Shown piece after piece: positions 29,613 to 51,137 of a stretch of DNA of 64,000 nt; the stretch's first letter is position 1; every line of letters begins with the position of its first letter. Where the stretch lies: positions 620,001 to 684,000 of the forward strand of contig NZ_FQVU01000002.1 of the NCBI RefSeq assembly GCF_900129455.1, written 5' to 3'. Source of the DNA: Jatrophihabitans endophyticus. Its GTDB lineage: Bacteria; Actinomycetota; Actinomycetes; Mycobacteriales; Jatrophihabitantaceae. A program made the translations under genes and the position numbers. The notes beneath the pieces were generated by a model. That model was given only the letters and a program-made list of their open reading frames with translations, was not told the origin of the DNA and did no database searches.

Positions 29613-29718
29613 CGACTGGCGACTTCCTGGGGCGACTGGCGAGCTACTGCCCGACTGGCGAGGTACAGCTCGCCAGTCGCCGCGGAAGTCGTCAGTCGGC
29701 CGCGGAAGTCGCCAGTCG
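29613..29718. repeat. Palindromic repeat array A (gactggcga units)
   Basis: Units with core cgactggcga start at 29613, 29633 and 29652. After the centre they appear inverted: ccagtcg or a variant at 29673, about 29692 and 29712. The centre is an 11-base perfect inverted repeat (29652-29662 with 29669-29679). The outermost 15 bases, 29613-29627 and 29704-29718, are also exact inverted copies. The spacing is 19-20 bases. It lies between the stop of DUF4446 and the start of pheA. Related arrays occur at 48161 and 49231. Confidence 0.85.
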
Positions 29719-47512: not shown

Positions 47513-48076
47513 ATGAACGTCCTGCTCATCGGACCGCCGGGTTCCGGCAAGGGAACGCAGGGCGAACGGCTCGCGCACCGCCTCGGGCTCGAGCACCTCG
47601 CCGCCGGTGATCTGCTGCGCGCCGAGGTCGAGCAGGGCACGCCGCTCGGTCGCGAGGTCGGCGACCTCATGCGGCGCGGCGACCTCGTCCCCGACGACAA
47701 GATCATCCAGCTCGTGATGCCCCGCGTCGTCGCGGCGGCCGCCGCCGACGGCTACCTGCTCGACGGCTTCCCGCGTTCGGTCGAGCAGGCCGAGGAGGCA
47801 CGCAAGCTCGCCGAGGACTCCGACGCCGCGCCGGACGCCGTCATCTACCTCGACGTCCCCCGCGACGAGCTGATGCGCCGCATCCTCGCCCGCGCGCGGA
47901 CCGAGGGCCGCGCCGACGACAACGAGGAGACTGTGCGCAACCGGCTGCGTGTCTTCGACGAGGCGACCAAGCCGCTGGTCGAGCACTACCGCGAGCGCGG
48001 CCTGCTGCACACCATCGACGCCGACCGCAGCGCCGACGAGGTAACCGACGCGATCGTCGCCGCTCTCCCGGACTGA
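47513..48076 (+). CDS. adk: Adenylate kinase
   Basis: A 187-residue nucleoside monophosphate kinase catalysing AMP + ATP to 2 ADP. P-loop GPPGSGKGTQG, NMP-binding HLAAGDLLRAEV and DGFPRSVEQAE are intact. The lid is the short form (RARTEGRADDNEETVRNRL), without zinc cysteines. In actinobacteria the main adk normally lies in the ribosomal-protein operon beside secY. Here it stands alone next to a secreted nuclease, so it may be a second copy or the main gene moved. Its protein would be cytoplasmic. Confidence 0.93.
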   Translation: MNVLLIGPPGSGKGTQGERLAHRLGLEHLAAGDLLRAEVEQGTPLGREVGDLMRRGDLVPDDKIIQLVMPRVVAAAAADGYLLDGFPRSVEQAEEARKLAEDSDAAPDAVIYLDVPRDELMRRILARARTEGRADDNEETVRNRLRVFDEATKPLVEHYRERGLLHTIDADRSADEVTDAIVAALPD

Positions 48077-48109: not shown

Positions 48110-48158
48110 CCTGTCCGACCCGGCCTGTCCGACCCGGCCTGTCCGACCCGGCCTGTCC
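48110..48158. repeat. 14-base tandem repeat downstream of adk
   Basis: The unit cctgtccgacccgg occurs at 48110-48123, 48124-48137 and 48138-48151, with a partial fourth copy cctgtcc. It lies in the noncoding gap after adk and directly before repeat array B. The copies are identical, suggesting recent slippage and possible length variation between strains. Confidence 0.85.
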
Positions 48159-48160
48159 CT

Positions 48161-48250
48161 GTCGACTGGCGGCTTAGGCGTCGACTGGCGACCTATAGGC
48201 CTCCAGTCGACGCGCATCTCGCCAGTCGAACCGGGAAGTCGCCAGTCGAC
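48161..48250. repeat. Palindromic repeat array B (gactggcga units)
   Basis: Direct units gtcgactggcg start at 48161 and 48180. After the centre the inverted core ccagtcga occurs at 48203, 48222 and 48242. Period is again 19-20 bases and the outer ends (gtcgactggc / gccagtcgac) are inverted copies. It lies between adk and the DUF559-like gene, about 100 bases before the latter's start. Confidence 0.85.
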
Positions 48251-48352
48251 GTGTCAAGGCCGCGGCCTGATCGCTGTGGACGGCCCGACATCGTCCACAG
48301 CCCGGACGACGCGCCGCCGCGCGACGACGCGCCGCGGCCCATGCTGCCTGCC

Positions 48353-49207
48353 ATGACCTCACTCGTGCGCGTGTCCCGCGGTGTGTGGCGGGACCCGGCC
48401 GCCGTCGCGGATCTGGCCGGCAGGGCGGCGGCGCTGCTGAGCGTGTGCCCACCGGATTCGGTCGTCGCCGGCGTGACCGCGACCCAACTGCGTGGACTGT
48501 GGCTGCCGCCGTGGCTCACCGACCCGACCCTGCCGATCGAGGTGATCGTGCACTGCGGACAGGACGAACTCGAGGCACGTCCGCACAGCATCCGACCCGA
48601 GATCCGTGCCCGTCGGCAGCACCTGCGTCCGGACGAGGTGACGACGTTCGCAGCCTTGCCTGTCGTCACCGAGGCCAGGGCATGGGTCGACCTCGCCGCG
48701 CGACTGGGCTCCGCCGACCTGGTCGCCCTCGGCGATTCCGTACTGCGCGGCCCCACCGGCGTCGCCGACCTGGTGGAGATGGTCGGGCGCGCCGTCCGGC
48801 GTCGGGGCGTGGTCCGGGCACGCAGTGTGCTGCCCTACCTCGACGGGCGGTCGCGGTCCCGTCCGGAGAGCCACCTGCGATACGCCATCGTGACGAGCGG
48901 GCTGCCGAGGCCCGAGGTCAACATCCCGATCTTCAGCGACATCGGGGAATGGCTCGCCGAACCCGATCTGAGCTACGACGACGTCAAGCTCGCCCTCGAG
49001 TACCAGGGAGCGGACCACGCCGCGGTCCGCCGAATGCGGCGCGACATCACGCGAGAGATGGACGTCGAGATGCGCGGTGGGTGGCGCACGGCCGAGTTCG
49101 GTCCGGCGGAGGTCTTCGGTCGACCGGACCAGGTGGCAACGCGCGTCCGGCGGCTCCGGATGGAGTGCGCAGCCCTGCTCGGCCGGCGTGATCCGTGGCA
49201 GCGATGA
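48353..49207 (+). CDS. DUF559-like (Vsr/PD-(D/E)XK fold) protein with N-terminal AbiEi-like region
   Basis: A 284-residue protein of a large actinobacterial hypothetical family. The N-terminal half (VCPPDSVVAGVTATQLRGLWLP, DEVTTFAALPVVTEARAWVDLA) resembles the winged-helix region of AbiEi-type antitoxins. The C-terminal part has the DUF559/Vsr-like pattern: SRPESHLRYAIVTSGLPRPEVN, then EPDLSYDDVKLALEYQGADH, with Glu, Asp and Glu-x-Gln placed as in PD-(D/E)XK nucleases. The usual final Lys is replaced by Gln, so activity is uncertain. ATG 48341 is an alternative start. The gene is bracketed by repeat arrays B and C. Confidence 0.75.
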   Translation: MTSLVRVSRGVWRDPAAVADLAGRAAALLSVCPPDSVVAGVTATQLRGLWLPPWLTDPTLPIEVIVHCGQDELEARPHSIRPEIRARRQHLRPDEVTTFAALPVVTEARAWVDLAARLGSADLVALGDSVLRGPTGVADLVEMVGRAVRRRGVVRARSVLPYLDGRSRSRPESHLRYAIVTSGLPRPEVNIPIFSDIGEWLAEPDLSYDDVKLALEYQGADHAAVRRMRRDITREMDVEMRGGWRTAEFGPAEVFGRPDQVATRVRRLRMECAALLGRRDPWQR

Positions 49208-49230
49208 CGCGGTGGCGAGTGGCCACGTGC

Positions 49231-49466
49231 GACGCCGACTGGCGAGTTGCGACGCCGACTAGCGAGTTGCGACGCCGACTGGCGAGTTGCGACGTCGACT
49301 GGCGAGTTGCGACGTCGGCTGCCGACGTCCGGGCCGACGACGACTGGCGAGTTGCGACGTCGACTGGCGACATCCGGGCCGACTGGCGAGGTATAGGTCG
49401 CCAGTCGGCGGATAGGTCGCCAGTCGACGGGACAAGCCGCCAGTCGACGGGACAAGTCGCCAGTCG
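49231..49466. repeat. Palindromic repeat array C (gactggcga units)
   Basis: Four near-identical 20-base units (gacgccgactggcgagttgc and single-base variants) fill 49231-49310. Diverged copies continue to the centre, where cgactggcga (49380-49389) is mirrored by tcgccagtcg (49398-49407). Beyond it the inverted core cgccagtcg recurs at 49418, 49438 and 49458. It begins 23 bases after the DUF559-like stop and ends beside a G-rich run, filling the gap to the convergent acyl-CoA synthetase gene. Confidence 0.9.
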
Positions 49467-49468
49467 GC

Positions 49469-49492
49469 GGGGCGGGGCGGGGCGGGGCGGGG
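49469..49492 (+). repeat. (GGGGC)n run, candidate G-quadruplex
   Basis: Five GGGG runs separated by single C bases lie on the plus strand at the end of repeat array C, four bases before the stop codon of the convergent acyl-CoA synthetase. Four or more G-runs with one-base loops are the strongest form of the G-quadruplex motif. It could block or end transcription in either direction. Confidence 0.7.
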
Positions 49493-49496
49493 CGAG

Positions 49497-51137
49497 TCAG
49501 TCGGGGTCGGGGAGGTCGCGTTTGACGACCTTGCCGGCGGGGTTGCGGGGCATCTCGTCGATGAAGACGATCTCGCGGGGGACCTTGTAGCGGGCGAGGT
49601 TGCTCTTCACGTGATCCTTGAGCGTCTGCTCGTCGACGTCCGCGCCGGCGTCCAGGACGACGTAGCCGCGTAGCCGCTTGCCGTACTTCTCGTCGTCCAC
49701 CCCGAGGACGGCCGCCTCGGCGACGCCGTCGTAGGTGGCGAGCAGCTCCTCGACCTCGGCGGGGAAGACGTTCTCGCCGCCGGAGACGATCATGTCGTCG
49801 TCGCGGCCGTCGACGAACAGCCGGCCGTCGTCGTCGAAGTGGCCGATGTCGCCGGTGGACATCTTCCCCGCGACCACGTCCTTCGTCCCGCCGCCGGTGT
49901 AGCCCTCGAACTGCATCGAACTGCCCACGAAGATGCGCCCGGACTCGCCCGGTGCGACCTCGTGGTCATCGTCGTCGAGCAGCGTGATCGACGTGCCGGT
50001 GGGCGGCCGGCCGACGGTGCCCGGCGCGGCCCGCAGGTCCGCCGGCGTCGCGATGGCGGCGTAGGCGACCTCGGTCGAGCCGTAGAGGTTGTAGACGATG
50101 TCGCCGAGGAGGTCCATCGTGCGGGTCGCGAGCTCGGCGGGCAGCGCGGAACCGGACACCGCGATCACCCGCAACGCGGCGAGATCGCGCCCGGCCAGCT
50201 CGTCCTCGCCCTCCTCCAGCAGCCGAGACAGCAGGATGGGGACGGTGACGAGGGTGTCGGCGGCGTTCTCCTCGAGCGCGCGCAGCGTGAACGCGGGGTC
50301 GGTCTTGCGGGCCGTGACGACGGTGTTGCCCAACCCCAGCGCGAGCATGGACGACAGCAGCCCCCAGGCGTGGAACCCCGGCGCGCTGAGGACGACGGTG
50401 CGCCCGGCCCGCAGCGGGATGCGGGACAGGTAGCCGCCCGGCAGCGCGAGCGACAGGCCCATGTCGCGGGGGGCGCCCTTCGGGGTGCCGGTGGTGCCGC
50501 TGGTGAGCAGCACGATCTTCTGCTTGGCCGACGGCCGGGGCGGCCGCCCCGGGTCACCGGCGCGGATCAGGCCGAGCAGCGTGTCGTCGGTGGTGTCGCC
50601 GTCGTGCCAGGCCACGTACTTCCCGCCGGGCAGGTCGACGTCGTTCGCGACGTCGGCGAACTCCTCGTCGTGGATCAGGGCCTTGACGCCCTCGCGCTCG
50701 CAGACGTCCTTGAGCTGCGGTCCGGCGAAGTCGGTGTTGAGCAGCAGCGTCTTGGCGCCGAGCTTCGCCCCGGCGAAGAGCGCCAGCCACAGCCCACGGT
50801 GGTTGCGGCACATGATCCCGAAACCGTCCCGGGGCTCGACGCCCTGCGTGTGCAGGGCGTTGGCGAGCGCGTTGCTCTGCTCGTCGAGCTCGGCGAAGGA
50901 GATGTCGCCGATCTCGTCGCGGATCGCGGCCCGGCCGCCGAAGCTCGCCGCCGCGAGGGAGACCGCGGCACCGGCCGGCCCGTAGGCCTCGACGTCGCGG
51001 GCGACCCGCAGCAGCTTGTGCGGCGGGGTCATGGCCACCCCGGCGCCGCGGGCCTGCAGCAGCGTCGCCGCGAAACGCGTCTCGAGTCCCGCGCGCTCCA
51101 GCGCCTGGCCGGCAAGCTTGAGGATGTCCATGCTCAT
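49497..51137 (-). CDS. Long-chain fatty-acid-CoA ligase-like enzyme (FadD2-like)
   Basis: A 546-residue ANL-superfamily enzyme. Motifs are LLTSGTTGTPKGAPR (phosphate loop), YNLYGSTEVAYAAIA, TGDIGHFDDDGRLFVDGRDDDMIVSGGENVFP and the C-terminal PAGKVVKRDL with the catalytic lysine. The N-terminal extension (about 55 residues, GQALERAGLETRFAATLLQA) is like mycobacterial FadD2-type proteins. It activates fatty acids with ATP and CoA. It is divergent from the CDP-alcohol transferase gene across 121 bases, and its 3' end abuts the G-rich run. Confidence 0.9.
   Translation of the reverse strand: MSMDILKLAGQALERAGLETRFAATLLQARGAGVAMTPPHKLLRVARDVEAYGPAGAAVSLAAASFGGRAAIRDEIGDISFAELDEQSNALANALHTQGVEPRDGFGIMCRNHRGLWLALFAGAKLGAKTLLLNTDFAGPQLKDVCEREGVKALIHDEEFADVANDVDLPGGKYVAWHDGDTTDDTLLGLIRAGDPGRPPRPSAKQKIVLLTSGTTGTPKGAPRDMGLSLALPGGYLSRIPLRAGRTVVLSAPGFHAWGLLSSMLALGLGNTVVTARKTDPAFTLRALEENAADTLVTVPILLSRLLEEGEDELAGRDLAALRVIAVSGSALPAELATRTMDLLGDIVYNLYGSTEVAYAAIATPADLRAAPGTVGRPPTGTSITLLDDDDHEVAPGESGRIFVGSSMQFEGYTGGGTKDVVAGKMSTGDIGHFDDDGRLFVDGRDDDMIVSGGENVFPAEVEELLATYDGVAEAAVLGVDDEKYGKRLRGYVVLDAGADVDEQTLKDHVKSNLARYKVPREIVFIDEMPRNPAGKVVKRDLPDPD

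Follow-up and report, generated by a model that had tools for sequence, protein, structure and literature searches.

An AbiEi–DUF559-type nuclease gene of Actinomycetota bracketed by its own dispersed palindromes: a probable REPIN/RAYT-like partnership built on a different enzyme

In the genome of Jatrophihabitans endophyticus, a gene for an AbiEi-like protein with a DUF559/EDxHD-type nuclease part stands between two palindromic arrays, and further arrays of the same family are scattered through the intergenic DNA of that genome. Homologues of the gene are common in the order, most of those compared stand between matching palindromes of their own type, and in several genomes the palindrome found at the gene is also dispersed elsewhere. 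We consider it probable that gene and palindromes form a partnership of the REPIN/RAYT kind, in which an EDxHD nuclease takes the place of the HUH transposase. The locus was analysed in a stretch of 64,000 nucleotides (contig NZ_FQVU01000002.1, positions 620,001 to 684,000), called the window hereafter.

Results

The bracketed gene and its arrays

A preliminary description of this DNA had placed two arrays built from the same units, B and C, on either side of a DUF559-like gene with little else in between. This layout was borne out: both arrays are real, and the nuclease gene is the sole gene predicted between them (Table 1). The arrays consist of GACTGGCGA units pointing to a dyad, followed by their reverse complement, and the N8 of the central palindrome is mostly SCTRYAGS genome-wide. 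Alignment of the upstream with the downstream flank of the gene gave a score of 95, compared with 23–31 in three controls. Folded as single-stranded DNA, the arrays form hairpins with z-scores of −9.2 (A), −5.1 (B) and −9.2 (inner part of C, 49333–49470). The gene has an alternative ATG at 48341. Simple repeats abut both arrays, with a perfect 14-bp tandem repeat of 3.5 copies (CCTGTCCGACCCGG, window 48110–48158) immediately 5' of array B and a 5-bp tandem run of GGCGG (window 49466–49494) immediately 3' of array C.

Table 1. Features of the locus in window coordinates; units of the arrays were counted with at most one mismatch per unit.
Feature	Position	Strand	Description
Array A	29614..29717	.	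Solitary palindromic element of the same family as B and C; 3 forward + 3 reverse units; between two minus-strand genes
Upstream neighbour	47513..48076	+	Adenylate kinase-like gene
Array B	48164..48247	.	Palindromic element 5' of the gene; 2 + 2 units, GACTGGCGA / TCGCCAGTC; degenerate centre
Nuclease gene	48353..49207	+	284-aa protein; AbiEi-like part + DUF559/EDxHD-type nuclease part
Array C	49237..49465	.	Palindromic element 3' of the gene; 7 forward + 4 reverse units; tandem expansion
Central palindrome of array C	49381..49406	.	GACTGGCGA-N8-TCGCCAGTC
Downstream neighbour	49497..51137	-	AMP-binding ligase gene

The window protein matched no Pfam family at E-values up to 1, no NCBIfam family at E-values up to 10 and nothing in PHROGs. 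PADLOC models of AbiEi matched it over residues 4–147 and 75–173 (best E-value 1.1e-8) and also matched every other member of a 15-protein alignment. The AbiEi-like part is probably DNA-binding. From the alignment, the nuclease part spans residues of about 165–265. At E ≤ 0.1, Pfam DUF559 (PF04480) matched eight of the 15 aligned homologues (best 2.7e-5) and REase_MTES_1575 (PF18741) matched seven, the window protein being in neither set; the best value of both nuclease models was about 3e-5. Four residues, E172, D205, H222 and D231, are invariant in the 15 rows and present in the window protein, and they would correspond to the letters of the EDxHD motif. Compared with solved structures, the profile gave two weak matches, an endonuclease-like protein (PDB 3hrl, E 0.0043) and a mobile intron protein (3r3p, E 0.23), which were its only ones at E ≤ 10. 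The families matched by the window protein and its homologues include no transposase model. A single-sequence AlphaFold model of the window protein reached a pLDDT of 38.9.

The array family in the window genome

The genome (4.48 Mb in 10 contigs) holds 87 + 80 exact copies of CGACTGGCGA, against 9 + 6 for the backwards control, and the centre GACTGGCGA-N8-TCGCCAGTC occurs 33 times with at most two mismatches, against 0 for the control. All but two of these centre matches belong to arrays with at least one exact unit, so that the repeat count proposed in the preliminary description came to 31 arrays of near-fixed geometry. Most arrays show a 20-19-17-19-20 spacing of unit starts, centred on the dyad, and some carry extra units outward. 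We took exact copies and geometry as the array signal because the 9-mer with one mismatch allowed does not exceed chance in the window, where it occurs 40 times as against 38.8 in shuffles. The centre match at C4:224957 is no array. The one at C1:509558 might be a degenerate 32nd array, with three one-mismatch units at array spacing around a GACCGGCGA palindrome (L311 1040–1084, C1:509539–509583). Another array (L064 3017–3120) has a central unit, GACTGTCGA/TCGACAGTC, altered on both arms.

Of the 31 arrays, two flank the gene and the other 29 lie elsewhere in the genome. Array A, singled out earlier as a solitary copy about 19 kb away, is real and has no such gene, but it is one of those 29 and not the sole one. 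The preliminary description had also held that repeats without enrichment near the gene would speak against its reading; the bracketing pair is present, but no enrichment goes beyond that pair. In a gene model made for this analysis, 22 arrays occupy tandem gaps, five divergent and four convergent ones. Most of them are separated from a neighbouring gene by no more than tens of bases, and two overlap predicted genes. Only one gene in the genome is directly adjoined by these arrays both upstream and downstream.

As far as we searched, the array unit is private to the window genome within the genomes scanned. With at most one mismatch, the centre pattern was found in one of 60 other genomes of the order (G057, once, with one exact unit) and in neither of two incomplete genomes of the window's own genus. 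A second collection of 84,980 species genomes, which may omit the window's own genome, gave single exact matches to the centre pattern in 11 stretches, all from other taxa; these 8-kb stretches contain no further exact unit, or one at 2–3 kb. We judged these 11 matches and the one in G057, being single palindromes or holding one exact unit, to be chance occurrences and not real arrays. Viral contigs contained neither the centre palindrome nor relatives of the window protein, a phage search with the protein gave one match covering 20% of the query, and Rfam gave no match at the gathering score.

Homologues and their flanking palindromes

With a cutoff of E ≤ 1e-30, 256 of the 347 genomes of the order that were searched by profile hold at least one homologue. 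The first homologues read (L103–L107 and L115), as well as a paralogue in the window genome (L032), each stand between two similar palindromes, which are mostly of a four-unit form with the units GAGTGGCGG, GAATGGGCA, TCGGTGGCC, GAGTGGCTA, GTTGAGTGACGG, GAGTGGCGA and GAGTGGTCG. A 19-17-19 spacing is common to the families of the window genome and of two other genomes, G006 and G012.

For a larger sample, flanks were taken from 66 further loci, comprising 26 new ones of 30 given by the profile search and 40 picked from its list. The flanks, 500 nt on each side, were compared by best local alignment, with flanks 1,000–1,500 nt away from the same locus as controls. A matched pair (score ≥ 45) was found at 65 of 78 homologous loci and in two of 234 within-locus controls (Wilcoxon p 6e-14); one of these two, at L168, reflects a third palindrome copy farther out. 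The 78 loci are not independent, many being at one shared chromosomal place, and the palindromes differ among them. L106 and L112, which are cut by contig ends, were left out, L106 having a pair by eye; L108, L109 and L111 were left out as the same genes as L138, L139 and L159. Homologues lacking flanking repeats, named beforehand as evidence against the proposed layout, are thus a minority, 13 of 78 being without a matched pair at this score. At several of the low-scoring loci a strong hairpin is present in one of the two flanks, in a count made without a control. An alternative null, in which the upstream flank of one locus was aligned with the downstream flank of another, had a 99th percentile of 455 and left none of 66 loci above it. 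It was rejected, since orthologous places, whose flanks are homologous, are numerous among the loci, and was replaced by the within-locus distal flanks and by other genes of the window genome.

In the window genome, seven of the eight DUF559-like genes found reach a score of 45, as against none of 146 other genes (non-DUF559, 120–450 aa, in the stretches examined). The top "null" genes of an earlier version of this control were DUF559-like paralogues and had been removed before the 146 were counted. One DUF559-like gene with a matching palindrome pair is at L067 2221–3105 (score 53), and a paralogue without a matched pair is at L072 3001–4032 (score 36).

In a plasmid collection, the window protein found three records, one of Tsukamurella tyrosinosolvens (NZ_LR134454.1, with the homologue WP_170181047.1, annotated as a DUF559 domain-containing protein) and two of Arthrobacter sp. 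StoSoilB13 (NZ_AP024649.1 and NZ_AP024648.1, with a homologue in each). All three genes stand between matching palindromes, with scores of 87, 64 and 74 against 33, 26 and 22 in the controls (700-nt flanks, one control each). These loci extend the pattern to a second order, Micrococcales.

Dispersed copies in other genomes

Palindromes of the type found at the gene were sought across 61 genomes with the pattern GANTGG-N14-CCANTC and its reversed control. A clear excess was found in three of them, namely the window genome (31 against 4), G006 (19 against 3) and G012 (24 against 9), and in all three DUF559 genes are flanked by units of this type. The bracketed gene is also present in G002, G005 and G011, which have no excess of the pattern; it need not fit their palindromes. 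A further, degenerate pattern, searched with one mismatch, did not rise above its reversed control (forward 40 against 50, 33 against 34, and 4 against 83), and of its matches the exact ones alone were used.

These exact matches numbered 33 in G006 and 19 in G012 by our own count, which had no control. All of the 20 places picked and read from the 33 in G006 have the four-unit form, as do all 18 solitary places read in G012 (17 exactly, one with a mismatch). For the paralogue L032, one clear solitary copy of the four-unit form was found besides the two at its flanks, together with a few doubtful ones. Hairpins of another unit, TGATCATSG, mostly of 58–69 nt, reach up to 43 per genome, and the reversed control gave 0 in all 38 genomes. 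They are commoner in the 16 genomes with GATCAT on both sides of a read locus than in 22 others (p 3e-6), and the same comparison within one family (15 against 14 genomes) gave medians of 6 and 1 (p 1e-4). The genomes had been grouped by hand, and the identical 16 and 22 came out when they were sorted mechanically by the presence of GATCAT or ATGATC on each side within 450 nt. Two genomes of the 16, whose other DUF559 loci were only partly read, hold 0 (G304) and 1 (G308) such hairpins.

For the palindromes of the named Tsukamurella and StoSoilB13 loci, a search of 72,556 plasmid records gave 16, 10 and 33 places. The 16 places of the Tsukamurella palindrome are confined to seven T. tyrosinosolvens records, which apparently represent one strain, sharing source and accession series; one place is inside an annotated gene. 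The 10 and 33 places of the StoSoilB13 palindromes are confined to the two records of that strain. In the clearest cases, the gene and the scattered copies of its genome share one palindrome; across the genomes counted, copy numbers run from none to dozens.

Exchange and turnover at fixed sites

The paralogue L032 and L106 of G011 occupy the same place in their genomes. Over 2,036 aligned nucleotides they are 73% identical, and both palindromes have changed together. Among 72 loci, 231 of 2,556 pairs share both outer flanks, many of them at one site in the family f16, where the palindrome-gene-palindrome block is swapped whole between species. Between L138 and L163, for example, the outer flanks are 88–100% identical per 100 nt (about 95%) and the block 44–74%, with the drop at the palindromes. 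In the two proteins, windows in the first 90 residues are 28–56% identical and later ones 60–76%.

Similar proteins tend to have similar palindromes. For 63 loci, element similarity correlated with that of the N-terminal (rho 0.49) and C-terminal (rho 0.52) protein parts, with partial correlations of 0.21 and 0.27 (each p 0.001). In a 14-locus subset at the same site, the N-terminal partial correlation was 0.49, a value that carries no significance estimate. Because the N- and C-terminal correlations are alike, neither part is singled out globally as the reader of the element.

Congeners also differ in which palindrome, if any, occupies a given intergenic site. At site E1, the convergent gap of L274 (L279–L295), 19 loci are readable in the genus of G328, G328 included. 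Three have TGATCATGGGG, three GAGATCTGCACAGTGG, three CGAGATCGSCG, three GTGCACGTCCGCGGA-like elements and seven none of these. At site E2, four of six genomes have the element, one in degenerate form, and two lack it, one of which has flanks 96–97% identical. We saw no target duplication or clean insertion boundary, the marks of a MITE or insertion sequence, at the orthologous sites, where the intergenic DNA is too diverged for boundaries to be read. An ABC-transporter gene of G012 lies in a stretch of about 3 kb (L232 1468–4283) that has a solitary palindrome at either end and is placed between genes that we take, from their translations, to be corA-like and glyA-like. Three sister species are without this stretch, namely G021 and G020, in which its two sides are 111 and 87 bp apart, and G018; other congeners have different genes at this site.

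Discussion

The pattern of REP elements with their RAYT transposase, proposed in the preliminary description, holds for the layout, with an enzyme gene between two palindromes and many enzyme-free copies, but not for the class of the enzyme. As described in PMC3116915, the enzyme gene of a REPIN/RAYT system adjoins its own palindromes, which are extragenic, dispersed, inverted pairs with predicted hairpins, and each palindrome group stands beside its own distinct single-copy enzyme. In the same way, palindromes flank the gene in 65 of 78 loci and in all three named ones, and they are dispersed intergenically as hairpin-forming inverted pairs in the window genome (31 arrays), G006, G012 and others, if not for every gene. 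The RAYT (TnpA-REP) enzyme is an HUH transposase, and REPs contain a GTAG motif that matters more in some groups than in others (PMC8266576). In contrast, the enzyme considered here combines an AbiEi-like part with a DUF559/EDxHD nuclease and is not an HUH (Y1) tyrosine transposase. The palindromes, with units such as GACTGGCGA, GAGTGGCGR, GAATGGGCA and TGATCATSG, have no GTAG (or CGTC) foot, and the CTRYAG of the window genome is central. The system works like REPIN/RAYT and is no member of it, having neither the HUH enzyme nor the GTAG foot. An enzyme with dependent repeats fits better than an autonomous transposon, and we prefer it because one gene alone lies between the arrays and several homologues stand at a conserved place.

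The enzyme also resembles other known families. Its nuclease part matches DUF559 and REase_MTES_1575 in eight and seven of the 15 homologues, and the four invariant residues, if they are indeed those of the EDxHD motif, together with the weak profile match to 3r3p, resemble the EDxHD homing endonucleases. These have been described from introns and phages, where they cut their target and drive their own reading frame, and one of them, I-Bth0305I, acts as a dimer on a target of nearly 60 bp (PMC3943268). The gene studied here differs in being free-standing between repeated palindromes. The AbiEi-like part is shared, in all 15 aligned members, with the antitoxin and repressor of the AbiE type IV toxin-antitoxin system. 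AbiEi binds inverted repeats of its own promoter. Here, however, the AbiEi-like part is fused to a nuclease, and the window locus has no adjoining gene for the AbiEii nucleotidyltransferase toxin. The earlier statement that no link between DUF559-type proteins and such repeats is known agrees with the open-access matches listed, whose titles and abstract beginnings contain no description of one; an earlier description elsewhere is possible. The system appears to be widespread and undescribed.

We infer that the nuclease moves the palindromes, by binding, cleavage and copying and by action in trans. The protein would most likely dimerise on its specific palindrome of 60–100 bp, either as duplex or as extruded hairpin, and we counted the target size of I-Bth0305I, which is close to that of the palindrome, in favour of a dimer. 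The AbiEi-like part might read the palindrome, and the bound protein would nick or cut it. Repair or strand transfer could then copy the palindrome to new intergenic places. The two gene-side copies would serve as a reference pair kept with the enzyme, whereas the solitary copies would be non-autonomous and served by the enzyme in trans.

Other explanations were weighed against this partnership. The cassette might be a selfish unit of the homing type, whose nuclease cuts a cassette-free chromosome, into which recombination then copies the whole unit; solitary palindromes would be relics or further cut sites. The block swapped between species at one site, exemplified by L138 and L163, speaks for homing, and the only structures matched by the profile are 3hrl and a mobile intron protein. 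However, 29 of the 31 arrays in the window genome are free of the gene, that genome yielded no further DUF559-like gene at a copy of this palindrome, and no empty site with the cut sequence was found, and we regard homing as unlikely. The palindromes could instead be bidirectional terminators or mRNA hairpins, with an autoregulated AbiEi-type gene whose product binds them as operators and with dispersed copies that form a regulon or have spread otherwise. We consider this quite improbable. AbiEi models do match all 15 members, and the elements are intergenic, close to stops and starts, and form strong predicted hairpins. On the other hand, palindromes stand on both sides of the gene, also past its stop, solitary ones occupy tandem, convergent and divergent gaps, and the nuclease residues are conserved. 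The unit is also absent from nearly all related genomes and congeners differ at the same site, unlike a conserved regulon.

It seems very improbable, finally, that the gene is mere cargo, carried along by two palindromes that another enzyme, for example an HUH RAYT or an IS transposase encoded elsewhere, had moved. The ABC-transporter stretch of G012, present between two palindromes and absent from three sister species, indicates that other genes can be bracketed. But the same family is bracketed repeatedly, in 65 of 78 loci and in two orders, and its palindromes go with its proteins.

We therefore return to the partnership of nuclease and palindromes, and we incline to a broader reading of it. 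The actinobacterial AbiEi-DUF559 proteins might be a second, independently evolved palindrome-propagating enzyme, each with a private palindrome of 60–100 bp, two copies of which stay at the gene while tens can be seeded through the genome. Competing families would replace each other both at the gene site and at intergenic sites, giving fast-turning pairs in most genomes of the order. This would assign a testable role to a very common nuclease family of "unknown function", whose members occur in 256 of the 347 genomes searched in one order, and every gene-palindrome pair offers a ready-made specificity experiment. If the reading is correct, families of dispersed intergenic palindromes in Actinomycetota would be explained, and the REPIN/RAYT way of life would have arisen at least twice, with unrelated enzymes.

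Some observations concern the form of the elements. With the right arms shuffled 2,000 times within a family, the observed pairing of the arms was reached 17 times for the family of the window genome, 275 times for that of G006 and 1,411 times for that of G012; as proof of a folded RNA or DNA this covariation is weak, and we did not use it. In the G006 elements (L204–L223), some columns of the inner units show less pairing than expected, a frequent combination being a GGCGA with a GGCGG, and the element may have a direction. In G012, four palindromes stand in a row about 177–187 bp apart, with shared sequence between them (L233 1490–2031).
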